From assembly GCF_004210375.1 (NCBI RefSeq), contig NC_134834.1, positions 157,437,290 to 157,501,289 on the forward strand: 64,000 bases of DNA. Direction: 5' to 3'. Shown one piece after another: positions 1 through 37,866 of this stretch. Made by a program: the position numbers and the translations under genes. This stretch comes from Tachypleus tridentatus. Lineage: Eukaryota; Arthropoda; Merostomata; Xiphosura; Limulidae. Numbering within the stretch: the first letter of the stretch is position 1; the number at the start of each line of letters is the position of its first letter. The notes under the pieces are model-generated. The model saw only the letters and a list, made by a program, of their open reading frames with translations, had not been told where the DNA came from and searched no databases.

Positions 1-118
1 AAAACTATGCCCAGTGTTTTAAGGACGAAGAGTTACTTGTAGCAGATTATTTCTGTGACTACAGAACTCGACCTAAACCAGAGGTGAACTTTTGCCCCAG
101 AAAGGAGTGCAAAGCTAG
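1..118 (+). CDS. ADAMTS-like gene, exon a (C-terminal part of a TSP1 repeat)
   Basis: Reads in frame from base 3 with Cys-x13-Cys spacing and a C-P-x4-C end, typical of the second half of a TSP1 repeat. It ends AAAGCTAG|GTGAGT at 118/119 in phase 2. The paralogous exon at 29464 has an AG directly before the base matching position 1, so the window may start on the first exon base. Confidence 0.85.
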
Positions 119-3100
119 GTGAGTATACTACAGAAAGAAGTGTAAAGGTAAGTGAGTATACTACAGAAATAAGTGTAAAGTTAAGTGAGATATATACACT
201 ACAGAAAGAAGTGTAAAGTTAAGTGAGATGTATACACTACAGAAAGAAGTGTAAAGTTAAGTGAGTATACTACAGAAAGAAGTGTAAAGGTAAGTGAGTA
301 TACTACAGAAAGAAGTGTAAAGTTAAGTGAGATATATACACTACAGAAAGAAGTGTAAAGTTAAGTGAGATGTATACACTACAGAAAGAAGTGTAAAGTT
401 AAGTGAGACATAAACATTACAGAAAGAAGTGTAAAGTTAAGTGAGATGATATACACTACAGAAAGAAGTGTAAAGTTAAGTGAGACATAAACATTACAGA
501 AAGAAGTGTAAAGTTAAGTGAGATATATACACTACAGAAAGGAATAAGGTGAGCTACAATTAATCTGTAGAAAGGAATGCAAAGTAAGGTGAGCTATCGT
601 ACATTAAGAACTGAATGTAAAGCTAGTTAGTTACAGATGCTACAGCCTCCAGATATACTACAGCAAATAGTGTAAAGTTAGGAAAGTCAGAGATACATAC
701 AAAAAATGTATTAAGAAAGACGAATTACGAATAAACTACAGAAAGAAATTTAAAAAAAGCGTAAGCTACAAATACGCTCCAAAAAAAAAGAGTATATTCA
801 AGTACAAATGCATTACAGAAAGAAATCTAAGATAAGGTGAGCTATAAGTGTCCAAAGATTATGTTAAAAAGTATTTGCTTACCCGACTGTGTAACTTCAG
901 GTCACTCTCTATACACAATCACGAGTAAGACCATTGTTTTTGCTATGTTTATGCTGCATTTGGTTAGCAAGTAAGAAACCTGGGACACAATTAGATATTT
1001 AGGTACAATGTTCCAGCAGATACGTCACATAAAATGAAACGAATGTATTTATATTCATTCATTTATAACCTCCATCAAATGCTACCTAAACTTTCTACCC
1101 TTAAATATCAGCTCATGAGTCTAGTAATGAATAGTAGTTATTAAATATCTCAAGGTAGAGTTATGACCATTGTAGTCCACAATTACGCTAAAAACCAGGT
1201 AAGATTCTCATGCATAACTCGTGAGATTTCCAAAAGAGTGTATAGAAGCTATCTATACCGAAACATAATGTACTAAGTTTGCTTATGTATTTATTGTCTC
1301 TATCTAAAGATGGGATACAAGTGCTTGGAGTGAGTGTTCAGCGTCTTGTGGAAAGGGGTATAAAACCCGATCTGTCCGATGTTGGCGGATGTTGGGGCCT
1401 GGGTTTGACAGTACAGTTCACGAGCGACTATGTGCAGAGTTAATTAAACCTCCGTCTATTCAACCATGTGACCTGGATCTTTGTAGCCCACAGTGGAGAG
1501 TTTCTGAATGGTCAGAGGTAAGTTTTAAACAATCAGTTATAAGGCTAAATCACTGATCATACAAAAAACAACCAGCTGTAAAGCTCTTCTACTGGTCACA
1601 ATTAACATAACACAATAACATAAGGTTTAGGGACAACAAGAGATCTATTGATCTGTCTTGACTGTCCCATCCTTTTAGCCAAACTTAAAGCTATTAAGTA
1701 AAAAGAACTAAAGCCAGCCTTTATCATTCATATATCTCAAGCTTTCTTTTAAGCTCACTCAACTTTACTGTCTTTGCAACATCCGAAGGCAATCCATTCC
1801 ATAGGCCAACCAACCTATTTGAAAAATGAAATTGTCTTAGCTGAAGACAGCTTCTATCTTGCCTAGATCTATATTTGTGTCTTCTAGTTCTATAATTCTA
1901 GCTGCTTAGTATGGAATATGTTGATATATCAACATATCAATTCAGTTTAAAATCTTAAACATTTCAATCATATTTCCTCTAACTCTTCTTTTTTCAAGAA
2001 AAAACAATCTGAGAGGTTTCAGACTCTACTTGTATTACAACCTCTTTATTCCAAGAACCATTCCAGTAACCTTTTCCAAACCATTTCCAACAATTTGGTG
2101 TTTTTTTCTAATCTAAGGAACCCAAGATTTAACACAATATTCCAAATGTGGCCTAAGCAGTGACATGCACAATAAAATTATAACCTCTTTAGACTCGTAT
2201 TCAGTATTTCTGTAGATATAACCTAAAATCCTGTTTGCCATACCACCAGTAACAGCATACTGCTTGGATGGGTTTAGCAATTAATGAAAGTCCGGCAGGG
2301 CCAGGTGGTTTAGAAGGCTTGACTTGTAATATGAGGGGCCCGAGTTCAAATCCCTCTCGCATCAAACATGCCCGCCGTTTCAGCCGTGGGGGCGTTATAA
2401 TGTGACGGTCAATCCACTGTTCATTGGTAAAAGAGTAGCCCAAGAGTTGACGGTGGGTGCTGCCTTCCCTCTAGTCTTACATTGCTAAATTAGGGACCGT
2501 TAGCGCAGATAGCCTTCGTATAGCTTTGCACGAAATTAAAAACTAACAAACAAAACAAGCAATTGATGAACTATTTACCAAGAACCCTTTCTCAGATGAC
2601 ACTGTTAAGGTTATTCACATCCGAATTATTATAAACCACATGCATTACCTTGCATTTATTATAATTAAAACCTATCTGCCATTTTTTTGGCCCAACTCAC
2701 TAAATGGTCTGAATCCTTTTGTAAATGAGCAGCATCCTCTTCACAACTAGCAACACTCAAGACTTTTATAACATCAGCAAATTTAAGTAATATATTAACT
2801 ATTTTTCATCTATGTCATTGATGCAAATGAAAAAGAGTAAAGGTTCTAACACCGAGCCTGAGGCACTCCATTTGTGACATTAATCCAGTTTGACCGAATT
2901 TCATTTCTAATAGCCCGCTGTTTTGTTCCATCCAGCCACTTTGGACTTAATATTGATGAACCTACAGAAAGAACATATGAAAAATGCATAGCTGTATCAT
3001 CCCTCTATTCAAGTTTTTATTCTTTTTTTTTTAATATACCATCGCTACATCATTTTACAAAATGTTTTTATTAATTATTTTGTGACTTTTTCATTGTTAG

Positions 3101-6100
3101 TATATTCTATAAATGCTGTAATAAAATTTAATGTTAACTGTTTTTTCTTCTTCACTTCATACGTGATATCAGAAATGGCTCTTTAAAGACAACGATGTAT
3201 AGTGTACAAAGCATTGCGAATTTTACATACTACACACATCTAATGGTCATCTATTGTTAACTGGTAATTTTTATTTTACGCAGTTCTTAAGTTTTTAAAG
3301 TACAAAGCATTGAGAATTTTACATACTACACACATCTAATGGTCATTTATTGTTGACTGTTAATTTCTATTTTACGCAGTTCTTAAGTTTTTAAAGGAAC
3401 ACCAAATATTTATAAGAAAGTTTAGTTCAAGGGGTATGTTACATAAGCTAAAACATATTTCTAGCTTAATATACTCTTCAAAAAAAGAAACGCAAAAGGC
3501 AAAATTTGAGACATATTGTTAACAAGTTTATTCCGGGTAGTTCTGTATGACATGTGTGAAACTTTGCACATTCACTGCTGAACATCCAAAGTCTGCAAAG
3601 GCGAAGTCCACGCTTACTAGTTGACGTTTAACGTCATTCAACGTCAATAACGAGTATGCCCCCCGTGAGCATCAATAACTGCTTTGCATCTCCTGCCCAT
3701 GGAAGCGATGAGACGACGAATCAAATCCTGTTGAATGGCTGTCCACTCAGCCTGAAAAGCTGCTGCAAGCTGAGGTAGAGTTTGCGGTTGAGGTTGTCGC
3801 CGTCGCAGACGTCGGTCCAACTCGTCCCAAAGATGTTCGATGGGGTTTAAATCTGGTGGGCCAGGGAAGAACGTTGATGTTGTGGTGTCTCAAGAAGACA
3901 GTGGTGAGTCGGGCTGTGTGAGGACGGGCGTTGTCATGTTGAAAAACGTCGTTGACGTTCACCATGATGGGTTGCACATGGGGCCTAAGAATCTCGTCGA
4001 AGGTTGCGTATGGTCTGATCGGAAATCCTACGCAGCTCTGGTATGGTTGAGGCAGTAGACGTCGCAGTGGTGGTCCTATCCCGAAGGTGACGTAACCGGA
4101 TGTAGCGATCTTGTGCGGGCGTGGTCACACGAGGTCTGCCAGATCGTGGACGGTCACAAGTTCATTCATGTTGTTGGTGACGATTCCATAGCCTTGTGAT
4201 GGTGCTTGGGTGGACATTCACAGCTCTGACAACATCTGATCGAGATTCGCCCTCTTCCAAGCGACCAATGGCGTTGTTGCGTTGTGCTTCAGTCAGTTTT
4301 GGCGTAACTGTATTGCGTGTCGGTGGCTTAACACTGAGCTATGGAAACCGAGAACCCGTCACTTTTATAGGGATTTTGCACATGTTGCACTTGCCGAACA
4401 TGCAGATCTCTCAAACAAATTTATTGGATACGAATGCGTTTTGGCGAAAAACCCGATGTTTTCCTCCGTTTTCAAAGTGCACAACTTTTATTGTCATTTT
4501 GGTCTGACAATCAGTGCCTTAACACAATAACATCACATACTCTGAACTTGTAACGTTATTACATATATTTCTCTTTAAGACAACAAAAATATCCCTTTTG
4601 CGTTTCTTTTTTTGAAGAGTATATGTTAGATATATACGTCTGTTTGAATTAAAGTTCTATGCGAGTGTTAAATTGAGTTATTTTAAGAAACTATAGTATT
4701 GTAAAGTAACAGAACCAGTATGTATGAATGTTTACGAAAAAGAGACAATTATTTAAAGTTCTGGAAATAAAAGCGATAACTAACAGTGAAACGAAAATTT
4801 GTATACACGTTTGATTTGTTATAATATATATTATTTTAAAATAGGTAAACTGTGTTTTTTTATTATTGAAATTCATCACCAACAAATCCTGACACAACAT
4901 ATCACTGAAATTTGTTATAGAGGGCTTTACTATAAGATAAATCAAAAACTTGAAATCTAAATTTTGCAAATGTGGATCTTAGAAAGTTAGGGAACAATGG
5001 TGGAGATGTTATAGACATTATTTACTCAAATTATAAATACCCCTATCTTGGCTTCATACTGTTACCCAAAATTACATTTGGTGGGTCAAAATAGAGGTTT
5101 GTAATTTGAGTAAATAATGTCTACAGCGTATACAGCCTTATATGATCTTGCTTAATAAGGGAGGACTATCTGCGCTAAATCTCGTATAATTTTGGTTTTG
5201 TGCGAGATTCAAACAAATCAATCCTTACTTTTAACCATTTCTATTTACAGGTTTTTAAATTCCTAATTTTTTATTTATGTTTTTTTTTATGCTCAACTGT
5301 GAGCAAAGGATTACTTTGTAAAATAGATAACTTTATACATTATAATGGTAATAAACACAGCCGGTAGTTACCTATACACAGTCTTTCCTTCATACATAAT
5401 ATAGGGATTGGCTCCGTATAAATATCTGATGTTCATTTGTTAGGCCTAGTAATTTCTATTTCATTTTGTACTTAAGGTTTTTAAAGAAACACCAAATACT
5501 TACACTAGAATTATGATGTTTGTAGTTTATGTAAAATATAGAAGAAACAAATCGATGTTTCGATACCTCTACAATCTTCGAAATGTATTAGATATATGTA
5601 ACTGTTTCAATTAAAGTTCAGTGCGAATGTTAAATTGAATTATTTTTCAGAAGAGATAACATTCTAAAGTAACTGAATCAGCCTTTGTGAGTTTTAACGA
5701 AAAAAGACAATTACTTAAAGCTCTGGATGCAACTGTGATAACCAACAGTGTAAACATTTGTATATACGTTTGATTTGTTTTAATATATCTTATTTTAAAA
5801 CAGGTGAGTTGTTTTAAAATAACTGTTTGTTTGTTATTGAAATTCATCACCAACAAGTCACAGACACCTACTGTAAATAATGCAGCCCATACATACATAA
5901 AAACCTGGCATCGACTAGGACACTACTGTGTTAAATAGCAGTAGAAGAAGACGTGAATAATAGCGGAAATAAGTTATTTACGTACAGCTGTAGTGGTGGC
6001 GAAAACACCGAAGAGGTTACAACCATATCGACTGATTTTGATAAGCAGACAGAGAGGGGCGACCTCTTGTACTCACAGACGATGATCTGTGAGAATTTGT

Positions 6101-9100
6101 TAAACAGGAACTAGAGAGAGAAGAACGTTAACAGAGAAGAGAGAAAGAAGGTTAAAGACAGAAAGACGAAAATGAGAAAGAAGAAAATAAAAGAATGGAA
6201 AGACTAGAAATAGACAGAATAAGAGCACAAATTGATACTGTCTAGTTCACCCATCAGAAAGACAGAAGACCCAGAAATGATAATAGGGTCAGGTTTAGCA
6301 GATCCAATCTACCAAATTTCTGCAAAAACCTAACTTCAAGGGGTAATAATAACAGCGATCAGGTGTGGCTTAATAGCTAGCGTACCTAATTGTGGGTCCG
6401 AGAGTTTATGGTTCTCGTCCTGTTAGCCCAGAAATATGCTTTGCACTTTGTGGCCAAGGTTGAACTATGAAAGTTGAAGATCAAAGTTTACTAATTAGTC
6501 AAACAAACGAAACTCAAGATTTGGGAGAAGCTGTTGTTAGCTAGCTGAATTCCCTCTGGGTTATTAATTAATTGTTAGGGACGGCTAAGCGCAGATAAGC
6601 CTTGTATACCTTTGCGCGAAAATATTCCAAACAAACGAAAGAAAAATACGTTGTGTAATGATACCAATATTTCTTTATAATTAAACGCAAAGCTACACAA
6701 TGGCTTGCCTCTGCTCTGTCCCGCGGATATTAAAACCCGATTTTTAACGTTATAAGCCCACAGACTTACCGCTGAGTAACTGGGGTACTGATACAAATAT
6801 ATTTGGCTAGTGAGAGACAAATGATCGTGTTAATTTTATATACCTTGTTCCCTATTTTTATTCACGTTATATCAATATTTAAACTGGTTATATACTGGTT
6901 TTCCCAATGGCGCACACACATATTTGAAGTACGTCAGTGAAAGAGAAATATATATATGCCATATCATCGTAAGAAAATGTATTTTTATCGAAACTGTCAT
7001 TTAAAGCTTTAATTCTTCTATGTTTTTATTCAAATACGTACCTTCTTTTTTATATTTTTATTTTCTTAGTGCTCAGTGAAGTGTGGTTATGGTGTTCAGG
7101 TTCGTGAAGTGCACTGTTCTTCTATTATACAGTCATGTTCTGAAAACACTAAGCCTAACAACCAACAAGAATGCTTTGTCCAGTCGTGTCAGAATCGCTG
7201 GACTTTATCTTTATGGAGCAAGGTATTTAAGTTGTTGTTAATAGGTACATATTAACTAACTAATGTGCAATAATTTTATCCGAAAAAAATGTAATTATAT
7301 TTGCATTAACCGGCTGATCTCGTTAACAAAAGAAAGACCTTGTTCAATAAACCGATATAGATGGTTAATCCCTAGGACTCACTAAAATAATGTAAGTGAT
7401 TAACCTGTAGGATCTAAATATTTTAATATAAGAATGAGCAGTTTAAAACAGGTACAGATATATGTTTAATAACTTAAAGCAGGTACATTAAAATGTTCAC
7501 AGTAAAGTAGCTGAGAAACGTAAGGTGTAAGGTTTATTTTTTAAAGTTTGCTTTCTGTTGTTGTTTCATGGCCCCAGTCAGAGTTGTCAAGTCTGCGTAT
7601 TTCTAGTGGATTTGGGATGTTGTTGTTTCATGACCCCAGTCAGAGTTGTCAAGTCTGCGTATTTCTAGTGGATTTGGGATGTTGTTGTTTTATTAACTAT
7701 GGTTTTTAATATTTTCTGCCTTCTTTGCGGTAATGTAGATTTTTAATAGAACTGCACTGCTTAATATTGGTGGTTTTGGGCTTGATTTTAGAACCTATAG
7801 GGCTTTTTTAGTCATGAGGTATGGCAAACTTGGTTTCACTACTGTTAAGGCTATCGCCTTAATAATAATTCAAGCATGATGTAAATTATACGACATTTTT
7901 AGTTCATGTAATAAACATGCATAGATCACTTTGTCGTTACTATTATATTTTAACATTTAGTGTTCAGGGCCTTGTGGTGTAGGAATAGAATGGAGAAACG
8001 TCACCTGCAGAGATCCACGTGGAAGTATTGTAGATGATTTGATGTGCAATGAAGGAGATCATCCCTTAACCGTTAGGGCGTGCGGGGACAGGCCAAACTG
8101 TCCTCCGGTTTGGGTTCCTCAGGAATGGAGCAAGGTAAGTTAATCTCTACAGGGAATATAAAACAGAAATAGCTAATACAATATTATAAAAGCCCTGACT
8201 ATGTAAAAGCTTATAATAAAAATACAAACTACATTGTAGGGTCGTCAAAACTTGGTCACTGATCAAGATAAAGTAATCTTCACCTAAATTTCCTTTGATG
8301 TACTTCGTGAAAAGTTTATCTTATGATAATCAAATCTATTATGATAATTGTGGAAAACAAACAACGTTTAAACCATTTCGATTTATGAAAACCCTAACTA
8401 TTCATTGTTATGTTATTGTTTATTAATGAAAGATTTAAAACATTTCAGGTATTAGAATTACAATCAAATACGGTGTTTAAAGCCTGTCGCTGTCATTTAA
8501 AATAAAAGTTTTATGAAGTTCAACCACATAATATATAAGTTCTACTTTTTTTTCTCTCACTTGAAGGAAACAATGTATTTCGATTTAGGACGAAACTGTT
8601 ATTTCTAATGCAAATGTGAACTCAACCATAAGATGTAGTGTTGGTTCGAGTACTTTATTTACTTGGTTTAATCTTTCTAAAAGTTATCTATAGACTATTT
8701 AAGCATTATGTGGAAATAAGTTTTTCTATTATAATTTGGAAAACTTTAGTAAGGATTATATGGAATGTTAAACGTATACTTTTTTACAAGTAACTCTTGT
8801 AGTAAATGATGAGGTACACATATCGATAGGGTGTTGTTCTTCATTTGATTTCTTAAAAAGTGGGGATATTTACCAAGAAACGTATTTAAATATTAGTTTT
8901 AATCATAATCAACAAAATATGTTGTTGCTTTTTTTCGAATTTTGCGCAAAGCTACACGAGGGCTATCTGCGCTAGCTGTCCCTAATTTAGAAGTGTAAGA
9001 CTAGAGGGAAAGCAACTAGTTATCGTCACTCACTGCCAGCTCTTGGACTACTCTTTTACCTAAGAATAGAGGAATTGACCGTCACATTATAACGCCCCCA

Positions 9101-12100
9101 AGGCTGAAAGGACAAGCATGTTTGGTGCGACGGGGATTCGAATCTCGACCCTCGGATTACGAGTCGAACGCCTTAACCCACCTGGCCATGGCGGGCCTAA
9201 AAATATGAACCAACAAACTGCCTTATTTATCACAAACATTCGAACTTTCGTGTTTACTTGTTCTAAGAAACATCGTGAAAAGTACATAAATCTACAAATC
9301 AAATCATTGATACAGAACCACTCTCCGTGCACTTGAAATGAAGAATTAAAAAGTAACAATGCTTCAAAACAAGGAATATTAGGCTAAACAACTAATGATT
9401 TGTTATCATTAAACTCCTTGTTTTGTATTCTGTTTATGTATTTTACGTTTATAAAATATTCGATTTAACATGGTGATTGAAAAAGTTCACAATGATTATA
9501 TACGAATATAAGACTGAAATTATTATACGTCATATAGTTCTGTTCAATCAGGCTTCTCTGATATGAAATTGTGCTAATACTATTTCAAAATTATAAGAAT
9601 GACAAAAAATAATTTTCTTGTTTTTTATTAGTGCTCGGTCAACTGCGGTTTTGGCGTACAACGCCGCCTGGTGATTTGTGGGGCAGTAAGAAATACGGAA
9701 TTCAGAAAACTTGGTGACACGTCTTGTCGACATTTAAATAAACCGGCTTCTCTCAGAAGATGTCGACAAGAGCTGTGTAAACCGGAGTGGTTTACCACAC
9801 CCTGGTCAAAGGTATTAGCTTGTATTTAATAACCCTAACGCCATGTTAATTTTACTCTTATCAGTTTTCAAAATATAATCCTACTATTTGCAATTTTGAT
9901 AAGGTAATTTTTAATAGTTCAGCTAATAAAAAATACCATAACACCTACGAATAGGAACTTCTATCTTGTTATTTAAAATTAAAGCTAAATATGTTATTAA
10001 TAAATGTAGTTACAATTAAACTGAAACAGTTTTTTTATCATTAGTTAACTTGTTATGGCAACCAAAATCATTGTTTACAGTTTCAACTATGTTTCTCAAC
10101 AATATAATATCTTACACTTTGTTAGCGTATCTTAGTTTTATGTTATGGCATTTCCAAATATATATTATATATATATATTTCTTTCGTAAAGTGTTCTTCA
10201 ACCTGTGGAAGAGGTGTTCGAGCGCGAGAAGTCCGTTGTTTCCACAATGGTCATTCAGCTAAAGGCTGTAATCCCAAAGAACGACCACCACCAGCTGAAG
10301 TTTGTATCTTGCCCTCCTGTCCGGAACCGGAAGTTGGTAAGGACAGGAAGTCTCATCATTACTATTGTGTTAAGATTTATACAAACAACGAAACGTTTTA
10401 TAGAAAAATAACATATTATATTTAATATATATCTAACATAATGTTGTTATGGAAAGCCTAAGTATAATGGAGAATTATAATCAGAATGAACCTGTCTAAT
10501 TTAAATAAGCACATGAATTCGAATCTAAATCAAGCCAATAGTTTTATTATTATGTAATCTGAGTATATTTGTCTGTTTAGACTAGAAAGAAGACAGCTTT
10601 TCAGCAACACCAACCAACTGTTCTTTGGACATTCTTGCCTGAATGAATAGTGGAATTTGACAGTCACTCTTACAGGGGATCCACAGCCCCATAAGATGGC
10701 TCATGTTTTTACAAAAAGTGCGAACTTAAACACTCGGATTCATAATACAGATCTATCAAAATTTATAGTTGTATCCTCTAGTCTTACCACTTTCACCACT
10801 AAATGTGAAAAAAATGATACTTCAACATTATACAATTCCTTTAGCAATCTTAAACACCTCAACCACATCCACTCTAACAAGAGAAACTTTCAAAGATCTT
10901 AACCTGTCCTCATGTAACAATTTTTTCTTCTCAGGTATCATTTTAAATAGCTTTTCTTTCGACTCTTTTCTTTTTCAACAATTCACTGTCCCTTGTAGGA
11001 AAGGGAGTCCCTAAAATTAACACAATACTCCAAATGTGACCCAATAAATAATATATACAATGAAATTTTAACATCTTTAGGCTTTTATTTAATATTTCTG
11101 AAGATACAACCTAAAGTCTTATTTGCTTCTGTTACTAGCAACAGCACGTTGCTTGGATGGCTTAAAAGACTGGCGAACATGAAGGCACTAAGATCTTTTT
11201 CTTTCAGGTTCTTTCCATCACAATTTCACTCATGATTCAGATGTTGATATCCCACATGTATTAATTTGCATTTATTGTAATCAAAAGCCACCTATCATTT
11301 ATTCAGCCGACTCATCAAATACTCCAAATCCTTCTGTAAAGCAGTAGTAATCTTATCATAGCCAGCGGCACCCAAATCTTTCATGTCATCTTGTCTCTGA
11401 TGTCAATCAGAAAGAGTAAATTAACATTGAGCTCTGATTAACCCCACTTGTGATTTAATCTAGTTTGATTAAACTCCATTTATAACAATCCTTAACATTC
11501 TTCCATCCAGCCAGTTTTCTCTCCCTTACATCTACAGAGAAAATTTTGACAAAACTATTATGAGGAAATTTATTAATTTATTTCTGGAAATCCAGGTTTA
11601 CCAAAATCCACACCAATATCCTAATATTCAAGGAGTGTTTAAAGATTAGTAAGGCCAGATTTTCCGTTAGTGAAATCGTGCTGATTATCCAAAACATTTT
11701 AAACTTTTTTAAACTAGTAATAACTGATATGTTAACAAATATCTAACAGTATGAACATGTAATAAACTGTATATATTTTAATTTTTTATCTTTATATTAT
11801 ATTCTCCTTTTCATAATAACATTTTATATTGAAATAATTGATCTTAACGTTGTTGAATAAATCACACATACAAGTCCAAACTTTCATGCTGATTAACAAA
11901 CTGTATCCACGCAAATAAAGGATTACCAGCACTTGAACACTCAATGACTTTTTCAACGATAAACGTTAATCAGTATAAAACTTAATTTGTCATCCAAACT
12001 TTTAACACGTTGTTTAAATATTTATCAGTTTGTAAAATATTTATTTTATAGCACCTAAAATTTCAACTTGCGAATAGTTACAGTTTGTATCTTTTATATA

Positions 12101-14811
12101 CCAATTACTATGAATATGCAATTGGATAAACAGTTTCATTTATATCAGTGGTTCCCAATCAGGGGTGCTCGCACCCCTTGGGGGAGTGAGATAGCGTTCC
12201 AGGGGGTGCGAGATAACATTTCAGTTTATGCAACTTTTAGTTTTTTGTAATATTTTTTCTTTTCCAAATGTTTCGTTTTTGTTTATATATCATTAAAAAC
12301 TAATTATAAAAAGTTGTTTTGGCCACCTTCACCTTTATTCTTAAATAAATAATTACTGTGAGTGGTACGAGAACATATTAAATTTTTTTAGGGGTGAGGG
12401 GCATAAAAAAGGTTGGGAACCACTGATTTATATGCATTTATTTTTTAACTTTATATTTTTAAATAATATAAACTTTGTTTTCATAATACTAATCCATAAT
12501 TTGTTTTAAAAAAATCCTTCATTTTGTAAAGTTCTCGGTGAGACAGTAGTATGTTTACAACTTTACAACGCTAAAATCCCATGCTCGATTTAACGCGATG
12601 GACACAGCAAATAGTTCAATGTGGCTTTGCTTTAAAACAAACCTTTTGTAAATTAGAATTAATTGGAAGTTGTTTTTCTTCTTCATTAATAGGGAAAAGA
12701 AGTTAACATTGCACCATCAGCAGCTACAATAATTTTACAATTTAAATGTGTATTGTAGAAATCATTTATTTGTATTATAAGCAATATTGGAACACCATTC
12801 TTTATTAACATGTTTTCTTTTTACTAAGTATATTTTAAAATAATAGCTTTTATCTCTAAAATTTCCATTGTGTGTAGGTAACATTTGATGTATCAAATGC
12901 TTTCTCGAAATTCAAAAGACACTCAGTGCTTTATTATTATTATCTAAGTTTCAAGTATTATGTATGAAATTTAAAAGAACATTTTCAGTGTTAGCTTTTT
13001 TCCAAAACCCGTATTTTATTTTTATAAAACATTGGGTTTAATTAAATATTCAACCAACCAACTTTTCACTATTTTTTTTCTATGTCTAAGGAAACAACAA
13101 TAACAATGAAATTGATCTAGGTTTTATATAATCATTTCTATTTAGAGTGGCCCGGCATGGCTGGACTCATAATCTAAGAGTCGAGGGTTTGAATCTCCCG
13201 TCTCACCAAACATGCTCGCTCTTTCAGTCGTGAGGGAGTTATAATGTGACGGTCAATCCCACTATTCGTTGGTAAAATAGTAGCCCAAGAATTAGCGGTG
13301 GGTGGTGATGACTAGCTGCTTTCCCTCTAGCCTTACATTGCTAAATTAGGGACGGCTAGTGGAGATAGCTCTCGTATAGTTTTGCGCGAAATTCAAACAA
13401 ACAAACCTATTTAATGTTGTTTATCATAATTACTATAGCTTTCTTGGCTTTTCTGGGAAAGTACTTGTGAAAGGTAAGTAACAAATACATGTCAATAATT
13501 CTATATCATTTACAAATTTATTAACAGTACTCAATGACATCTATTGCGTTCTGGATTTTTCCCATTTTCAAGACTCGTGATTATGGTCGATCCACACTTA
13601 TTGCATGAAGGATAGAAACAGAAACATACAGTATTGCTAATGTAAGTTATATTAAATATTTCACAAGGTTAACTATAAGTTATTTTCACAAAATTTTCTG
13701 CCATATTTACAAAATTGTTATTAAGTTTATTTGTTTACATTCTACCTCCTGGTGGGACAGCGGAAAGTTGTTTTTATTATTAACCACAAAGCTATATTTT
13801 TGTACTCTGCCCACCACAGATATCGAAACCCGGTTTCTAGCAGTATACGTCCACAGACATATCACTGTGCTACAGCAGATTTGTTTGCTTTTGAATTTTG
13901 CACAAAACTGCACGAGGGCTATCTGCGCTAGCCGTCCTTAATTTGGCAGTGTAAGACTAGAGGGAAGGCAGCTAGTCATCACCTCCCACCGCCAACTCTT
14001 GGGATACTCTTTTACCAACGAATAGTGGGATTGATTGTCACATTATAACGCCCTCACGGCTGAAATGGCGAGCATGTTTTATTTGACGGGAATTGAAACC
14101 CGCGACCCTCAGATTACGAGTCGAATGCTTTAACCATCTGTCCATGCCAGGCTGCTATTGCAGGACAGCGATAACTTTATAAACTTACAACGCTAAAATT
14201 ATGGATTCGATTCACCGCTTTGGGCACAGTAAATAGCCCAATGTGGCTTTGCTCTAAAATAAACTAAGGCCAAATATTTAAAAGCTTCACTCTCATTTTA
14301 CTTGATATTATCCACGTAATCGGGTCGTACTACCTTATTATTTGTTTATAAATAAATCTATTAACAAAATGTAATTGTTTTATGATATCCCTTTAGATTT
14401 AAAAATTACTTTTATAGAGTTCGTTCTTTCGTTCCGTACTTTTGACTAATTTGTTCCTGTAAATTATAGAACTTTTTCGTAATATTGATTTAAGGGATAT
14501 TTGTTCCACTTTTTATGTGTTATATCTCTACCATTTATCACAGTTTCTTATTTTTTTCTGATGTTTTATATATATATATATACTAGTTTTTTCCTTACCT
14601 GTAGAAGGAAACATTTCGAATACTTCTCGAATTCTCGAACAGGCATCATGGTATCGATAACATTAATTGAAGATATTAATGTTCTATTTCAGATCCTCCT
14701 TGCGTGGACAATAAGCTAGCCAATTGTGGTCTCGTTGTAAGGGCACGTCTCTGCAATCACCGATACTACAAACAAGCTTGCTGCTTTTCTTGCAGAAAAT
14801 TCAAGGAATGA
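1..14811 (+). CDS. ADAMTS/ADAMTS-like secreted protein, C-terminal part (TSP1 repeats + PLAC), 5' partial
   Basis: Spliced CDS from exons 1-118, 1310-1517, 7070-7222, 7961-8134, 9632-9811, 10192-10336 and 14693-14811; phases agree at every junction and the stop is TGA at 14809. The protein shows the end of one thrombospondin type-1 repeat, then five whole TSP1 repeats, each opening W-x4-W-S-x-C-S-x2-C-G with six Cys, then a PLAC domain whose end has the paired Tyr and the CC-x2-SC pattern. Family knowledge: ADAMTS proteases and ADAMTS-like proteins are secreted extracellular-matrix proteins, and the TSP1 repeats bind matrix and carry C-mannose/O-fucose. Any metalloprotease, Cys-rich or spacer region lies upstream of the window, so protease versus protease-less ADAMTSL or papilin-type cannot be decided. 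At least six post-spacer TSP1 plus PLAC would fit an ADAMTS16/18-like layout, but this is weak. Introns sit at the same place in successive TSP1 repeats, between WS(E/K) and CS, phase 0. Confidence 0.88.
119..850 (+). repeat. 33/38-bp minisatellite derived from an exon-intron junction (array 1)
   Basis: About 11 regular units to ~545, then decayed units to ~850. Core: CAGAAAGAAGTGTAAAG followed by TTAAGTGAG and an ATATATACACTA or TATACTA spacer. The unit aligns with the end of exon a plus its donor: exon CAGAAAGGAGTGCAAAG then CTAGGTGAGTATACTA. Every unit keeps the GTGAG, but the last exon base is usually A rather than G. Confidence 0.93.
1310..1517 (+). CDS. ADAMTS-like gene, exon b (complete TSP1 and start of the next)
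   Basis: Acceptor TCTAAAG|A at 1309 and donor GAG|GTAAGT at 1518. 208 nt: one base completes the Arg codon of exon a, then 69 codons. It holds a TSP1 starting W-D-T-S-A-W-S-E-C-S and ends with the W-x4-W-S-E of the next repeat. Confidence 0.92.
1640..2880 (-). mobile_element. CR1-like non-LTR retrotransposon remnant (reverse transcriptase C-terminal region)
   Basis: Minus-strand translation gives, with breaks, a reverse transcriptase palm segment (F-A-D-V in place of F-A-D-D, then K-W-Q-x3-N-x3-C-K-V-M-H near 2640-2800). It continues as a R-P-H-L-E-Y-C-V segment near 2130-2160 and a L-R-G-N-M-I-E-M-F-K-I-L-N segment near 1960. Many stops; the second catalytic Asp of the FADD box is lost. A SINE interrupts it at 2291-2558. 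Confidence 0.75.
2291..2558 (+). mobile_element. SINE family A inserted in the CR1-like LINE
   Basis: tRNA-like head with a B-box-like GAGTTCAAATCC, then the conserved body and the tail CGCAGATAGCC...GCACGAAATTAAAAAC. Flanks repeat as AGCAATTAATGA (before) and AGCAATTGATGA (after), a likely target-site duplication with one mismatch. Confidence 0.85.
3474..4619 (-). mobile_element. Tc1/mariner-superfamily DNA transposon with terminal inverted repeats
   Basis: Ends CTCTTCAAAAAAAGAAACGC and its reverse complement, flanked by TA at 3472-3473 and 4620-4621. The minus strand encodes a broken DDE transposase: Q-H-D-N-A-R-P-H-T-A with V-L-P-W-P at 3850-3945, and downstream, in another frame, sequence resembling the usual Tc1 C-terminal part ending near 3655. 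Frameshifts and stops show it is inactive. It sits inside an LTR-like copy and so is younger than it. Confidence 0.88.
5135..5240 (+). mobile_element. SINE family A tail fragment in the LTR
   Basis: Contains the diverged tail GGACTATCTGCGCTAAATCTCG and GTGCGAGATTCAAACAAATC. The inverted LTR copy near 27530 lacks it, so it arrived after the two copies separated. Confidence 0.5.
6537..6640 (+). mobile_element. SINE family A 3' fragment
   Basis: TAGGGACGGCTAAGCGCAGA, then TTTGCGCGAAAATATTCCAAAC: the tail only, 5'-truncated. Confidence 0.7.
6668..6781 (-). mobile_element. SINE family B
   Basis: Minus-strand short tRNA-derived element: tail AATTAAACGCAAAGCTACAC, B-box-like AAAACCCGATTTTTAACG and head ...TACCGCTGAGTAACTGGGG. 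Shares its tail with family A but has a different head and no family A body. Confidence 0.75.
7070..7222 (+). CDS. ADAMTS-like gene, exon c (TSP1)
   Basis: Acceptor TTTTCTTAG|TGC and donor AAG|GTATTT; 51 codons in phase 0. It begins C-S-V-K-C-G, completing the TSP1 started in exon b, and ends W-T-L-S-L-W-S-K, the start of the next repeat. Confidence 0.92.
7557..7690. repeat. 62-bp direct tandem duplication
   Basis: Unit starting GTTGTTGTTTCATG at 7557 and again at 7619, one mismatch, with a partial third start at 7681. Lies in the intron before exon d. Confidence 0.9.
7961..8134 (+). CDS. ADAMTS-like gene, exon d (TSP1)
   Basis: Acceptor ACATTTAG|TGT and donor AAG|GTAAGT; 58 codons in phase 0. 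Begins C-S-G-P-C-G and ends with W-V-P-Q-E-W-S-K of the following repeat. Confidence 0.92.
8932..9197 (-). mobile_element. SINE family A
   Basis: Near full length on the minus strand, from tail TTTTGCGCAAAGCTACACG to head GGCCATGGCGGGCC, with B box GGGGATTCGAATC near 9130. ORFs here on both strands are SINE translations. Confidence 0.9.
9364..9426. repeat. Short inverted repeat (11-bp stem)
   Basis: CAAAACAAGGA near 9364 and TCCTTGTTTTG near 9416, with a ~40-base AT-rich loop. Could be the core of an old MITE; no terminal repeat or target duplication seen. Confidence 0.5.
9632..9811 (+). CDS. ADAMTS-like gene, exon e (TSP1)
   Basis: Acceptor TTTTATTAG|TGC and donor AAG|GTATTA; 60 codons in phase 0. 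Begins C-S-V-N-C-G and ends W-F-T-T-P-W-S-K. The open reading frame on the opposite strand here is a shadow. Confidence 0.92.
10192..10336 (+). CDS. ADAMTS-like gene, exon f (last TSP1)
   Basis: Acceptor TTTCGTAAAG|TGT and donor TTG|GTAAGG; 145 nt, ending in phase 1. Begins C-S-S-T-C-G, has a proline-rich stretch before the last two Cys, and ends C-P-E-P-E-V. A (TA)n tract lies just before the acceptor. Confidence 0.9.
10570..11560 (-). mobile_element. CR1-like LINE remnant, second copy
   Basis: Colinear on the minus strand with the remnant at 1640-2880: Y-N-K-C-K-L-I-H-V-G-Y near 11255, then A-N-K-T-L-G near 11130 and S-H-L-E-Y-C-V near 11030, with many breaks. Both copies are antisense to the host gene and lie in its introns. 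Confidence 0.7.
12146..12425. mobile_element. hAT-type MITE with perfect 8-bp target duplication
   Basis: Terminal inverted repeats CAGTGGTTCCCAA and TTGGGAACCACTG, flanked on both sides by ATTTATAT (12138-12145 and 12426-12433). 280 bp, AT-rich core, no coding. Ends of the CAGTGGTTC type and an 8-bp duplication are typical of hAT non-autonomous elements. Confidence 0.93.
12532..12645 (+). mobile_element. SINE family C
   Basis: Head GTGAGACAGTAGTATG, TTTACAACGCTAAAAT, and tail GCAAATAGTTCAATGTGGCTTTGCT. Same family as 26250-26374; diverged. Confidence 0.7.
13149..13409 (+). mobile_element. SINE family A
   Basis: GGCCCGGCATGGC head with a short deletion in the A-box region, then GGGTTTGAATCTC, complete body and tail GCGCGAAATTCAAACAAAC. 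Confidence 0.9.
13766..13877 (-). mobile_element. SINE family B, abutting a family A copy
   Basis: ATTAACCACAAAGCTATATT tail, GATATCGAAACCCGGTTTC B-box region and CTGTGCTACAGCAG head; the outermost head bases are missing where the family A copy begins. Confidence 0.8.
13878..14152 (-). mobile_element. SINE family A between a family B and a family C copy
   Basis: Near full length on the minus strand, from TTTGAATTTTGCACAAAACTG to GTCCATGCCAGGC. Confidence 0.88.
14153..14270 (+). mobile_element. SINE family C
   Basis: ACAGCGATAACTTTATAAAC, TACAACGCTAAAATTATGG and TAAATAGCCCAATGTGGCTTTGCTC mark it. It follows the family A copy with no gap. Confidence 0.7.
14693..14811 (+). CDS. ADAMTS-like gene, terminal exon (PLAC domain and stop)
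   Basis: Acceptor CTATTTCAG|AT in phase 1, joining as Asp. 39 residues follow to TGA at 14809-14811. Six Cys in the PLAC (protease and lacunin) arrangement: C-V-D-N, N-C, L-C-N, Y-Y-x3-CC-x2-SC. PLAC is the usual C-terminus of papilin, lacunin and several ADAMTS(L) proteins. Confidence 0.9.
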
Positions 14812-15949: not shown

Positions 15950-16289
15950 GTTTTCAATTAAGCACAAAGCTACAATCCTTGTCGCACCAAACATGCTTGC
16001 TCTTTCAGCCGCGTAGGCGTTATAATGTGACGGTCAATCCTAGTCTTCGTTGGTAAAAGAATAGCCCAAGAGTTGGCAGTGGGTGGAGATGACTATCTGC
16101 CTTCCTTCTAGTCTTACACTGCTAAATTAGGGACGGCTAGCGCAGATAGCCCATGTGTAGCTTTGCGTGAAATTCAAAACAAACAAACACAGCTGCACAA
16201 TGGACTTTCTGTGCTCTGCCCAGCACGTGTATCGAAACCCGGTTTCTAGCAGCGTGACCCCCCCAGACATACCTCTGTGCTGCTGGGGG
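15950..16289 (-). mobile_element. SINE family B split by a family A insertion
   Basis: The two halves, 15950-15974 and 16189-16289, join into one minus-strand family B element (TTTTCAATTAAGCACAAAGC tail to GTGCTGCTGGGGGC head). The break lies in the tail; AGCTACA before and AGCTGCA after the insertion look like its target duplication. Confidence 0.85.
15975..16188 (+). mobile_element. SINE family A, 5'-truncated, nested in family B
   Basis: Starts within the tRNA-like head at TCCTTGTCGCACCAAACATG and runs through a complete body and tail to AAACAAACAC. Younger than the host family B copy. Confidence 0.88.
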
Positions 16290-16544
16290 CAACTAAAAAA
16301 TAAGGAAACCAGTTAGAAGCACGTTAACGTTAAGATATTCACTGCTATTATAAAAACGTGTTCAGAGAACTGAACTGTGGGATATTTAGTGGCAGCGCAT
16401 GGGTTTAAACAAAACTCGCTAGCTACTAAATCCAGAGTTCTAACAAAGGGTCAACCGGTGTTCTTGAAGAAAGAGATGGTTGCCCGAACAGGTCTTTTTA
16501 TAAATAGACTGTTAACAAATCTGACACTGTTCACAATGTATTTC

Positions 16545-16818
16545 TTTGATTTGGTTTGAATTTCGCGCAAAGCTATTCGAAGGCTATCTGCGCTAGCAGT
16601 ACCTAATTTAGCAGTGTAAGACTAGAGGGAAGGCAACTAGTCATCACCTCCCACCGCCAACTCTTGGGCTGCTCTTTTACCAACGAATAGTGGGATTGAC
16701 TGTAACTTTATAACGCCCCCACGGCTGAGAGGGCGAGCATGTTGGGTGTGACAGGGATTCGAACCCGCGACTCTCGGATTACGAGTCGAGCGCCTTAACC
16801 ACCTGGCCATGCCGGGCC
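16545..16818 (-). mobile_element. SINE family A
   Basis: Full length on the minus strand, from GGTTTGAATTTCGCGCAAAGC to GGCCATGCCGGGCC, one of the better preserved copies. Confidence 0.92.
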
Positions 16819-17533: not shown

Positions 17534-17808
17534 TGGCCCGGCATGGCCAGGTGGGTTAAAGCACTCGACTCGTAATTCGAGGGTCGCGAGTTCGAATCCC
17601 TGTCACACCAAACATGCTTGCCCTTTCAGCCGTGGGGACGTTATATTGTGACGATCAATCCCACTATTCGTTAGTAAAAGAGTAGCTCAAGAGTTGGCGG
17701 TGGGTGGCGATGACTAGCATCCTTTCCTCTAGTCTTACACTGTTAAATTAGGGCTGTCTAGTCGAGATAGCTCTCGTGTAGCTTTGTGTGAAACCCAAAA
17801 CAAACCAA
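17534..17808 (+). mobile_element. SINE family A
   Basis: Full length: GGCCCGGCATGGCCAGGTGG head, GAGTTCGAATCCC B box, body, and tail GTAGCTTTGTGTGAAACCC. Confidence 0.92.
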
Positions 17809-20872: not shown

Positions 20873-21952
20873 TAAAAATTAGAGTATAACATTAGTTTAA
20901 ACTCTCAGTACATTAAAATTAGAGAGTAACATTAGTTTAAACTCTCAGTACATTAAAATTAGAGAGTAACATTAGTTTATACTCTCAGTACATTAAAATT
21001 AGAGAGTAACATTAGTTTAAACTCTCAGTACACTAAAATTAGAGAGTAACATTAGTTTAAACTCTCAGTACATTAAAATTAGAGAGTAACATTAGTTTAT
21101 ACTCTCAGTACATTAAAATTAGAAAGTAACATTAGTTTAAACTCTCAGTACACTAAAATTAGAGAGTAACATTAGTTTAAACTCTCAGTACATTAAAATT
21201 AGAGAGTAACATTAGTTTATACTCTCAGTACATTAAAATTAGAGAGTAACATTAGTTTAAACTCTCAGTACATTAAAATTAGAGAGTAACATTAGTTTAA
21301 ACTCTCAGTACATTAAAATTAGAGAGTAACATTAGTTTATACTCTCAGTACATTAAAATTAGAGAGTAACATTAGTTTAAACTCTCAGTACACTAAAATT
21401 AGAGAGTAACATTAGTTTAAACTCTCAGTACATTAAAATTAGAGAGTAACATTAGTTTAAACTCTCAGTACACTAAAATTAGAGAGTAACATTAGTTTAA
21501 ACTCTCAGTACATTAAAATTAGAGAGTAACATTAGTTTAAACTCTCAGTACATTAAAATTAGAGAGTAACATTAGTTTAAACTCTCAGTACATTAAAATT
21601 AGAGAGTAACATTAGTTTATACTCTCAGTACATTAAAATTTGAGTGTAACATTAATTTAAACTCTCAGTACATTAAAATTAGAGTGTGACATTAGTTTAA
21701 ACTTTCAGTACATTAAAATTAGAGTGTAACATTAGTTTAAACTCTCAGTACATTAAAATTAGAGAGTAACATTAGTTTATACTCTCAGTACATTAAAATT
21801 AGAGTGTGACATTAGTTTAAACTTTCAGTACATTAAAATTAGAGTGTGACATTAGTTTAAACTTTCAGTACATTAAAATTAGAGTGTAACATTAGTTTAA
21901 ACTCTCAGTACATTAAAATTAGAGTGTAACATTAGTTTATACTCTCAGTACA
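20873..21952. repeat. 40-bp satellite, 27 tandem units
   Basis: Unit reads ATTAGAGAGTAACATTAG, TTTAAACTCTCAGTACATTA and two joining A residues. Variants (TTTAA or TTTAT; CATT or CACT) recur in threes over the first ~480 bases, giving a 120-bp higher-order period. Each unit has a dyad, GAGAGT with ACTCTC. Later units are more diverged (GAGTGT, ACTTTC). Confidence 0.96.
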
Positions 21953-22720: not shown

Positions 22721-23246
22721 TATTAAAGGTATAGGGTGCTGAAGCTCAAAAGGATTTTATAACTTCATTTGTGAATGTGCTTTAAATGTTTGAAAGAGTA
22801 ATGTTTCTATAGAAAACATACAAAAATAGAAACTCAAACGATCCAATTCATTATTGAGAGAGTTGGGTGAGAATAAAACATCAGTTAATCAGAAAAGAAA
22901 CTCACTATTACAAACAGGAGGGTTTTTACCATTACTTAATACACAAATAGTTTCATTAGTTGATGGTTGGGAAAGACAGGCTATTGGATGTTAAAATGAA
23001 TGATCTAAAGAACTGTTACATTCACTTTATCAATCTAAGGTTTATGAAAGGGCCATTCATAAAGTTTTATATTCTGTGTATAAGGATACGGAGCTTTTCT
23101 TACATGATGGTGTGGTATCTGAAAGTGATAAAGCCAAAATGTTAAATTAACTGCAACAACGTCATCAAATACTTCAGTCATAAACTATGGAACCTATTAA
23201 ACTTAAAATGGAATCGCCAGCTCAAGAAAATTTAGATGTCATTGTT

Positions 23247-23517
23247 GTTTTTGGTTTGAATTTCGCGCAAAGCTACACGAAGGCTATCTGCACTAGTCGT
23301 CCCTAATTTAGCAGTGTAAGACTAGAGGTAAGGCATCTAGTCATCACCACCCACTGCTAACTCTTGGGCTATTCTTTTACCAACGAATAGTAGGATTGAC
23401 CGTCACATTATAACGCCTCCACGGCTGAAAGGGTGAGCATGTTTAGTGCGCCGGAGATTCGAACCCCCGACTCTCGGATTACGAGTCGAATGCCTTAACC
23501 ACCTGACCATGCCAGCC
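23247..23517 (-). mobile_element. SINE family A inserted in the Polinton remnant
   Basis: Full length on the minus strand, from GGTTTGAATTTCGCGCAAAGC to CATGCCAGCCC. It interrupts the reading frame that begins near 23188. Confidence 0.9.
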
Positions 23518-28889: not shown

Positions 28890-29124
28890 TGGGCCCGGCA
28901 TGACCAGGTGGTCTAAGGCACTCGTAATCCTAGAGTCGCGGGTTCGAATCCCCGTCGCATCAAACATGCTTGCCCTTTCAGCGTTATAATGTGATGGTCA
29001 ATTCGTAAAAAATGTAGCCCAAGAGTTGGCGGTGGGTGGTGATGACTAGCTGCCTTCTCTCTAGTCTTACACTGCAAAATTAGGACGACTAGCGCAGATA
29101 GCCCTCGTGTAGCTTTGCGAAGGC
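28890..29124 (+). mobile_element. SINE family A, internally deleted
   Basis: GGCCCGGCATGACCAGGTGG head, GGGTTCGAATCCC B box; short deletions in head and body, and the tail ends at CTTTGCG. Confidence 0.88.
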
Positions 29125-29463
29125 TGTTAGAGTGTGCCAGGTAAACAGAACATCTTAGATTATAAAAATGTTGCTTAGATTCAGTTCTTACTCTTCAATT
29201 TAAAATACATGAATTTTCATGAAAAAAAACGTTGAAAAGTCAGTATTCCATTATTGTACTTTGCTACTCAGAGTTTGTTATGTTCACGAAGAGTATATTT
29301 TTATAGAAGTGTCTGCGGGAATTTAAATCTGTTTGTAAAGAAGACATGAAGGTGAGACATTAAAGATCAATATTTTTACTTCTACAAATAATTCTAGAGA
29401 ATAATACTGACCAGAGTTTTCTATTAGAGGCAATAACGCCAGTGTCTTTTTAAGGATTACAAG
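29125..29463 (+). other. Sequence upstream of the orphan exon
   Basis: AT-rich, ends with a modest pyrimidine stretch and GATTACAAG before the duplicated exon. No upstream exon of the ADAMTS-like family was seen between 14811 and here. Confidence 0.4.
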
Positions 29464-29581
29464 AAAGCTATGCCCAGTGGTTTAAGGACGAAGAGTTACT
29501 TGTAGCAGATTATTTCTGTGACTACAGAACTCGACCTAAACCAGAGGTGAACTTTTGCTCTAGAAAGAAGTGCAAAGCTAG
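29464..29581 (+). pseudogene. Orphan duplicate of ADAMTS-like exon a
   Basis: 118 bases aligning without gaps to 1-118, with an AG acceptor at 29462-29463 and the same donor (AGCTAG|GTGAGT). The frame is open, but four residues differ: Asn to Ser, a conserved Cys to Trp, Pro to Ser and Glu to Lys. No neighbouring TSP1 exon is found on either side. It may be a dead duplicate, an exon of an unseen paralogue, or an assembly artefact. Confidence 0.75.
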
Positions 29582-30670
29582 GTGAGTATACTACAGAAAG
29601 AAGTGTAAAGGTAAGTGAGTACACTACAGAAAGAAGTGTAAAGTTAAGTGAGATATATACACTACAAAAAGAAGTGTAAAGTTAAGTGAGATGTATACAC
29701 TACAGAAAGAAGTGTAAAGTTAAGTGAGATGTATACACTACAAAAAGAAGTGTAAAGTTATGAGATATACACTACAGAAAGAAAAGAAGTGAGATATAAA
29801 AGTTAAAGTTAAGTGAGATATATACACTACAGAAAGAAGTGTAAAGTTAAGAGAGATATATACTACAGAAAGAAGTGTAAAGTTAAGTGAGATGTATACA
29901 CTACAGAAAGAAGTGTAAAGTTAAGAGATGTATACACTACAGAAAGAAGTGTAAAGTTAAGTAGATGTATACACTACAGAAAGAAGTGTAAAGTTATGAG
30001 ATGTATACACTACAGAAAGAAGTGTAAAGTTAAGTGAGATGTATACACTACAGAAAGAAGTGTAAAGTTAAGTGAGATGTATACACTACAGAAAGAAGTG
30101 TAAAGTTAAGTGAGATATATACACTACAGAAAGAAGTGTAAAGTTAAGTGAGATGTATACACTACAGAAAGAAGTGTAAAGTTAAGTGAGATATATACAC
30201 TACAGAAAGAAGTGTAAAGTTAAGTGAGATATATACACTACAGAAAGAAGTGTAAAGTTAAGTGAGATATATACACTACAGAAAGAAGTGTAAAGTTAAG
30301 TGAGATGTATACACTACAGAAAGAAGTGTAAAGTTAAGTGAGACATAAACATTACAGAAAGAAGTTTAAAGTTAAGTGAGATATATACACTACAGAAAGA
30401 AGTGTAAAGTTAAGTGAGATGTATACACTACAGAAAGAAGTTTAAAGTTAAGTGAGATGTATACACTACAGAAAGAAGTTAAAGAGATGTATACACTACA
30501 GAAAGAAGTGTAAAGTTAAGTGAGATATATACACTACAGAAAGAAGTGTAAAGTTAAGTGAGATATATACACTACAGAAAGAAGTGTAAAGTTAAGTGAG
30601 ATTTATACACTACAGAAAGAAGTGTAAAGTTAAGTGAGATGTATACACTACAGAAAGAAGTGTAAAGTTT
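29582..30670 (+). repeat. 38-bp exon-junction minisatellite (array 2, about 28 units)
   Basis: Same unit as at 119-850 but longer and more homogeneous: CAGAAAGAAGTGTAAAG, then TTAAGTGAGATRTATACACTA. A few units are shortened. It begins at the donor of the orphan exon and ends abruptly at 30670. Confidence 0.95.
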
Positions 30671-30728
30671 ACCAAATAAAATCATGATATTCTTATATCT
30701 TGTTATTCAGTAATACTCCAACAAAAAA

Positions 30729-31003
30729 GGGACCAGCATGTCCAGCTACTTAAAGCGCCCGACTCGTAATCCGAGGGTCGCAGGTTTGAATCCCTGTCAA
30801 ACCAAACATACTCGCTCTTTCAACCGTGGAGACGTTATAATATGAGGGTCAATCCCATTATTCGTTGGTAAAAGAGTAACCCAAGAGTTGGCAGTGGGTG
30901 GTGATGACTGACTAACTGCCTTCCCTCTAGTCTTACACTGCTAAATTATGGACGGCTAGTGCAAATAGTCCTCGTGTAGCTTTGCGCGAAATTAAAAAAA
31001 ACA
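30729..31003 (+). mobile_element. SINE family A
   Basis: GGGACCAGCATGTCCAGC head, CAGGTTTGAATCCC, complete body and tail TTTGCGCGAAATTAAAAAA. Confidence 0.9.
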
Positions 31004-31040
31004 CAACAAAAAAACAATTATCTTTATCCTTTTTATTGGT

Positions 31041-31261: not shown

Positions 31262-31485
31262 GGAAACTTTATGTAATTTGATAACACCTAAAAACGTATT
31301 AAGTCTATTTAAAAGTATCACAGAAGGAGTAGCATTGAACAAAAAAAAAAGATTATACATTAAAATTTACTAACTAGGTATCGTAGTAAAAAATTTATTC
31401 AAAAATTATTTTAACACGAAAAGCGCGAAAGCATGAAAAGCACAATTACAACCATTTTCACAAAATATTTCATGTAACAAATATA

Positions 31486-31760
31486 CGGCCCAGCATGGCC
31501 AGGTGGTTAAGGCACTCGACTCGTAATTTGAGAGCCGCAGGTTCGAATCCCCGTCACACCCAACATGCTCGCCACCTCAGCCGTAGGGACGTTATAAAGT
31601 TACCGTTAATCTCACTATTCATTGGTAAAAGAGTAGCCCAAGAGTTGGCGGTGGGTGGTGATGACTAGCTGCCTTCCCTCTTGTCTTACACTGCTAAAGT
31701 AGGGACAGCTAGCGCAGACGGCTCTCGTGCAGCTTTGCGCGAAATTAAAAAAAAAAACAA
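31486..31760 (+). mobile_element. SINE family A
   Basis: GGCCCAGCATGGCCAGGTGG head, CAGGTTCGAATCCC, body, and tail TTTGCGCGAAATTAAAAAA; well preserved. Confidence 0.92.
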
Positions 31761-37643: not shown

Positions 37644-37651
37644 GAAAAAAC

Positions 37652-37866
37652 ATGAAGGAGACCTGTGTTCATTGGTTTCGAAAAGGTCTACGCCTCCATG
37701 ACAACCCAGGTTTGATGAAAGCAGTAGAAAAATGTGAACATTTTAGACCTATATTTATCTTAGACCCATGGTTTGTGAAAAACATGCGTGTTGGACCCAA
37801 TCGCTGGAGATTTTTGTTACAGTCCTTAAAAGATCTTGACAACAGTTTAAAGAAATTACACTCCAG
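37652..37866 (+). CDS. phr6-4: (6-4) photolyase exon 1
   Basis: Residues 1-72 (last codon split). ATG at 37652 follows AAAAAAC; the conserved H-W-F-R-K-G start lies seven residues in, as in the family. Donor CCAG|GTACAG. Confidence 0.92.

Follow-up and report, generated by a model that had tools for sequence, protein, structure and literature searches.

A minisatellite probably seeded by the 5′ splice site of a thrombospondin-repeat exon in the horseshoe crab Tachypleus tridentatus

In the horseshoe crab Tachypleus tridentatus a minisatellite adjoins a coding exon (exon a), and its repeat unit matches the end of this exon together with the start of the following intron. We consider it likely that the array was seeded by the old splice site of exon a, that it was later copied together with the exon to a place outside the gene, and that it is most probably neutral. 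Array and copy both lie in the stretch of 64,000 nt that was analysed (the window). The gene content of the genome makes this species likely: the Coagulin family was detected in it and in 0 of 14 controls, and two coagulogen exons match the solved coagulogen 1aoc of T. tridentatus, the second with no difference over 48 residues and the first with none from its HFKSEC onward. The features are listed below by their position in the window; a slash within a sequence marks an authentic or candidate splice junction. Donor scores (bits) are from a human frequency matrix, and energies are for pairing to the 5′ end of U1.

1..118, + strand: exon a, second half of a TSP1 domain; the protein fits C-x4-C-x2-R/W as in the paralogues
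98..130, + strand: seed segment, made up of the last 21 bases of exon a and the 12 intron bases that follow; the authentic 5′ splice site is at 119 (6.95 bits, U1 duplex −12.5 kcal/mol)
119-1309, + strand: intron after exon a (1191 bp)
131..541, + strand: homogenised minisatellite with 33- and 38/39-bp units and a 142-bp higher-order duplication (Tandem Repeats Finder, unit listing)
148..153, + strand: strong candidate decoy GTAAAG/GTAAGT in the first repeat unit (7.57 bits, −11.4 kcal/mol)
290..295, + strand: second strong candidate decoy GTAAAG/GTAAGT (7.57 bits, −11.4 kcal/mol)
535..846, + strand: decayed units, three of them with G at −1 (TAAG/GTGAGC at 549, 589 and 837; alignments and donor scores)
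1310..1517, + strand: exon b, the next TSP1 repeat (Pfam TSP1_ADAMTS; acceptor ...CTAAAG/A TGG; donor at 1518)
14680..14811, + strand: PLAC-domain exon with stop codon (Pfam PLAC, 7.7e-13)
28892..29119, + strand: SINE with the putative 5′ breakpoint of the exon/array duplication (jump in divergence)
29455..29581, + strand: copy of exon a, located outside the gene (differs at 5 of 132 aligned positions, 127 of which are exon)
29582..30669, + strand: array 2, adjoining the exon copy (29 units past the exon; the final unit is incomplete)

The gene with exon a contains thrombospondin type 1 repeats (Pfam TSP1_ADAMTS) and a PLAC-domain exon; judged by this domain composition it encodes an ADAMTS-like protein of the extracellular-matrix type. 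The PLAC exon probably represents the 3′ end of the coding part. Exon a most likely starts 9 bases upstream of the window (AAG/GATTACAAG) and ends at position 118 with CTAG/GTGAGTAT. A comparison of exons a and b to PDB gave no match at E 0.001.

Tandem Repeats Finder reported the array either at 98-541, as a row with the 142-bp higher-order period, or at 127-541, with a 38-bp unit in 11.3 copies. With its start at 98 the array therefore begins inside the coding end of exon a. The seed segment is the first member of the array and the following units adjoin it without a gap, which places the array among the intronic VNTRs that directly adjoin an exon and include its 5′ splice site. An earlier interpretation based on the letters of this DNA (the sequence-only reading) had given the array an extent of 95..850. 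Units can indeed be followed to about 846, but the periodic part stops near 541, and the stretch from about 535 onward consists of decayed units.

The same reading had proposed that the unit corresponds to the exon end and the intron start, and this was confirmed. The stretch 90-130 aligned to the majority unit with a score of 40. Among 2000 further GT contexts, drawn from the parts of the window that exclude both exon/array regions, none scored as high (best score 32). The 17-mer CAGAAAGAAGTGTAAAG, with up to three mismatches, occurred 43 times in the window versus 0.58 expected occurrences. Tandem arrays are prone to assembly error and the assembled copy number may be wrong, but the similarity clearly exceeds chance by both measures, and two diverged copies exist that have different unit series and different 3′ flanks. 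That the array is an assembly artefact or a chance similarity is thus exceedingly improbable.

In order to learn how far the unit is spread, we searched the genome (2.17 Gb, 205 contigs), the repeat counts being lower bounds. The 25-base core of the unit, allowing up to two mismatches, had at least 35 matches, 34 of which lie in the two arrays of the window (11 and 23). The single match away from both arrays carries two mismatches, and the reversed control pattern of the core had no match in the genome. Almost all of the core matches found thus sit in arrays that are each flush with a copy of exon a, and the unit is not widespread elsewhere. A dispersed satellite or a transposon-borne repeat was rejected as an explanation on the same counts (34/35, lower bounds).

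A search of the genome for whole arrays returned the two arrays of the window and three weak places with 68-70% identity, on contigs C6, C3 and C2. We rejected these as relatives, since they represent other minisatellites with units of 16, 34 and 37 bp. Within 9.9 kb around each weak match there was no match to exon a beyond the repeat-like exon end, and no match to exon b. The 37-bp unit on C2 (L011:4828-5462) shares GTTAAGTGAGATATA with the array unit and shows no match to exon a; we take the shared stretch to be due to chance.

The sequence-only reading had described one exon with its array. The array at exon a was correctly recognised, but a second exon-plus-array copy at 29455-30669 had been missed. 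Array 2 begins flush with the exon copy. The PLAC exon lies 14.6 kb upstream of this copy, and a photolyase/cryptochrome-type gene follows at about 37.6 kb. No second exon b was detected when window positions 1-3000 were compared to the window by blastn, and the peptide of the exon copy (43 aa) had no Pfam match at E 0.1. The five differences between the two exons fall into four codons, and all four changes alter the amino acid. One of them replaces a Cys in copy 1 by Trp in copy 2; we assume that this is a conserved Cys of the TSP1 fold. Together with the exon divergence of 3.8% (5/132) this fits a decaying exon copy.

Divergence between the two copies was similar in the upstream intron (3.4%, 11/320) and lower at the start of the array (2.0%, 3/152), where the first units follow each other in the same order in both arrays. 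The common unit order at 2.0% divergence, compared to 3.4% in the upstream intron, indicates that the array already existed when the duplication took place. Inside a SINE further upstream, the divergence was 13.8% (31/224), and the jump from 3.4% to this value suggests that one breakpoint of the duplication is located there. As judged from these sequence comparisons, copy 2 arose later by duplication of DNA, and its exon is decaying.

The SINE-like repeat is present in at least a dozen copies in the window, and we take it to be tRNA-derived by its look. One copy starts about 50 bp after array 2. Copies were seen at 2290-2560, 8920-9194, 13164-13406, 13880-14148, 15974-16189, 16537-16815, 17538-17793, 23242-23513, 28892-29119, 30720-31019 and 31476-31760, besides others. 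The photolyase/cryptochrome-type gene downstream of the orphan array is on the + strand (37640-38517); its first exon was recognised by Pfam, a second exon (38254-38517) by eye only.

The similarity of exon end and unit could have arisen in either direction. An older intronic repeat may have overwritten the exon end, or the exon end may have been exonised from it. Two observations are in line with such an origin. First, the exon end of copy 2 has the repeat-like sequence AAGAAGTG, which is nearer to the repeat unit than the exon end of copy 1; exon and array may have exchanged sequence, by some conversion between them. Second, some of the decayed units, which are mixed witnesses on the origin, resemble the young unit more than the exon. 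The units at 661 and 816 scored higher with the young 38-bp unit (42 versus 26 for the exon seed, and 36 versus 30), and the unit at 739 was found with young units only. Other decayed units speak for the exon as the source: three of them retain its G at −1, unit 569-597 scored 40 against the exon seed, 38 against the young 38-bp unit and 30 against the young 33-bp unit, and the unit at 607 was barely nearer to the exon seed (28 versus 26 and 26).

The paralogous exons speak for the opposite direction. A protein search with exons a and b gave 25 matches, comprising exon a, exon b, the copy of exon a and 22 other TSP1 stretches, one of which is a later exon of the same gene. Of these 22 we examined 12 paralogous loci, all on other contigs, at the acceptor side. 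In every one of them the Trp codon is preceded by AG/N TGG, a phase-2 acceptor-like site as in exon b. Two near-identical pairs (L018/L020 and L023/L025) reduce the 12 loci to about 10 independent cases, and the exon start is less sure in L023 and L025, where the open frame continues upstream past the acceptor-like site. Since this site is common to all 12 loci and the end of exon a encodes the family pattern C-x4-C-x2-R/W, the splice site is most likely the older element and the exon seeded the repeat. The position of the intron looks old, and we infer with good support that the exon end was copied into the array and not the reverse. Against a repeat that came first there is also its near absence elsewhere, with one of 35 core matches (lower-bound counts) away from exon a and this one carrying two mismatches; we regard such an origin as very improbable. 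Gain of the intron by tandem duplication was rejected as well, considering the acceptor-like AG in 12/12 paralogous loci examined and the acceptor at 1309, which lies outside the array.

At these 12 loci (L016-L027) no tandem array overlapped the TSP1 exon as located by homology. A two-copy repeat of 17 bp lies about 30 bp past the TSP1 exon of L017. L018/L020, from a paralogous TSP1 gene on C11, have a 79-bp array with 2.8 and 18.5 copies within the locus, which ends about 120 bp before the exon.

The view that a splice site seeded its own array, which the sequence-only reading had put forward, is thus well supported by the confinement of 34/35 core matches to two arrays flush with copies of exon a and by the acceptor side shared in 12/12 loci examined. 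We propose that tandem duplication of a 33-bp stretch across the old 5′ splice site placed a second copy of this stretch in the intron after exon a, where it grew to a minisatellite by slippage or unequal exchange. Units at the 3′ side would then have decayed, while a derived unit with A at −1 and A at +6 spread through the 5′ part. Later, a copy of the upstream intron, exon a and the array would have been inserted outside the gene, about 29 kb further downstream, one breakpoint being in the SINE, and the exon copy would have been decaying there.

The sequence-only reading also saw in the array a row of decoy donors in which the last exon base is changed from G to A. A is indeed present at −1 relative to GTGAG in all 11 homogenised units of array 1 after the exon (nine TTAA, two GTAA), but most of these sites are weak. 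The majority unit TTAA/GTGAGA (8 sites in array 1 and 21 in array 2) reached 1.04 bits and −4.6 kcal/mol, compared to 6.95 bits for the authentic donor at 119, which has the strongest U1 pairing of the intron sites scored. Most units are therefore disarmed. Missing from the earlier description were the two full-consensus GTAAAG/GTAAGT units and the three decayed units with G at −1 (8.09 bits, −9.6 kcal/mol each). Scoring the units as 5′ splice sites, as had been suggested, consequently gave five with a matrix score equal to or above the authentic donor (148, 290, 549, 589 and 837). A further site at 1199, outside the units, has 7.08 bits and −11.0 kcal/mol. Six GT sites of the 1191-bp intron, five of them in units, are at least as strong as the authentic donor by score, versus 18 such sites on the same strand of the whole window, authentic donors included. 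None of 5000 random overlapping stretches elsewhere in the window matched this number.

Such an exceptional density of strong GT sites makes an effect on splicing plausible. When exon a is read onward, the frame stops at the junction (...K A R TGA), as had been noted before, and any downstream donor would thus lead to a truncated frame and protein. Use of the site at 148, which is conserved in copy 2 at 29611, would keep 29 nt of the intron and the junction TGA. Decoys near exon a could therefore recruit U1 and either enhance exon definition or divert transcripts into mRNA with a stop codon. In line with this, the five units mentioned above score no lower than the authentic donor, and any use of a downstream donor retains the TGA. 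There are also precedents in the accessible parts of three papers: in ABCA7 the use of a cryptic donor in the next unit leaves one unit in the mRNA, which shifts the frame and results in a premature stop (PMC5954066), in PAH a downstream U1 site acts as an enhancer (PMC5933811), and competition between splice sites has been described for intron retention (PMC8706089). Nevertheless, the majority unit is weak as a donor, none of the intron sites scored pairs better with U1 than the authentic one, and the same majority unit is retained in the array outside the gene. We therefore consider a function of the array in splicing unlikely. It is more doubtful still that the gene has turned its splice site into an element for the control of splicing, in which the decoys from 148 onward would compete with the authentic donor and divert a share of the transcripts to decay, the length of the array would set the dose, and the A(−1) unit would have disarmed most of the copies.

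Loss of GTGAG was compared by eye between the arrays. It was lost in 6 of the 28 complete units of array 2 (29741-30498; five small core deletions and one substitution) and in none of the 11 units of array 1, a difference without statistical significance (one-sided p 0.115, two-sided 0.158). The comparison gives no support for selection that maintains GTGAG in the gene; together with the first strong decoy being kept in both copies, the contrast could hint at some constraint. The weak majority unit dominates in the gene as well as outside, and units of this type predate the duplication. We take this as a sign that they spread by chance and are not under selection at present, and such likeness in both settings argues against upkeep by splicing. 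Judged from the sequence, the array is most likely a neutral minisatellite born from a splice site, with some cryptic-donor risk. The authentic donor would stay in use because it is nearest to the exon and pairs best with U1, while the few strong decoys, the first of them 29 nt downstream, may yield some unproductive mRNA with the junction stop codon.

A repeat in human ABCA7 is linked to Alzheimer's disease, and the horseshoe crab array provides an invertebrate parallel to it. As described in the available part of the report, the VNTR of ABCA7 intron 18 is a 25-bp array that includes the donor of exon 18, and the first GT is the real donor (PMC5954066). To this extent the two systems are alike: a tandem array is flush with an exon, the donor is part of the array, and a downstream donor leads to a stop, here as read from the sequence. 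In contrast to ABCA7, as far as that part of the report goes, the horseshoe crab unit holds recognisable coding exon sequence (the exon content of the ABCA7 unit being outside the comparison), most units are weakened by an A at position −1, some units survive in decayed form, and there is an orphan copy of exon and array outside the gene. By this comparison the array would belong with the ABCA7-type VNTR, to which it would add a readable coding founder and a natural control outside the gene.

Other known systems are less close, again as far as the accessible text of these papers describes them. The Rogers model of intron gain (PMC4974935) likewise involves tandem duplication across a segment that bears a splice site, but in the horseshoe crab no new intron arises; the existing one appears to be old and has an acceptor that is not part of the array. 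The dual-specific repeats of polyubiquitin and VCX3A (PMC10809524) also have splice-site motifs arranged in tandem within a single gene; there the AGGT of the repeat can act as either splice site and the intron comprises a whole number of units, whereas the repeats studied here are intronic. We rejected a dual-specific splice-site repeat, since the intron 119-1309 far exceeds the periodic array and is not a multiple of 33 or 38 bp. Tandem repeats of human segmental duplications (PMC2812944) are comparable as minisatellites at exon-intron borders of duplicated segments that alter gene structure; in the horseshoe crab, by contrast, one exon was duplicated, and it lies as an orphan outside the gene. 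Literature searches on splice-site minisatellites and repeats, on decoys and U1, and on horseshoe crabs gave no record of the exon a array locus.

The array is a clear case, with much of its past retained, of a minisatellite whose founder is most likely a splice site that is still readable as coding sequence. The seed, the units in decayed and in homogenised form and a copy outside the gene are all present in one window. Whether decoy donors are put to use, tolerated or removed by selection can thus be followed here in a natural setting.

The window contains some further repeats and mobile elements. Two other clean minisatellites with 40-bp periods and unrelated units are located at 20875-21952 (27 copies) and 54753-55071 (8 copies). 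A fragment of a retrotransposon endonuclease (Exo_endo_phos_2) lies on the + strand at 41439-41879. On the − strand we noticed a transposase-like DDE fragment at 3650-3889, below the Pfam cut-off, and a helix-turn-helix (HTH_38) fragment at 47481-47783.
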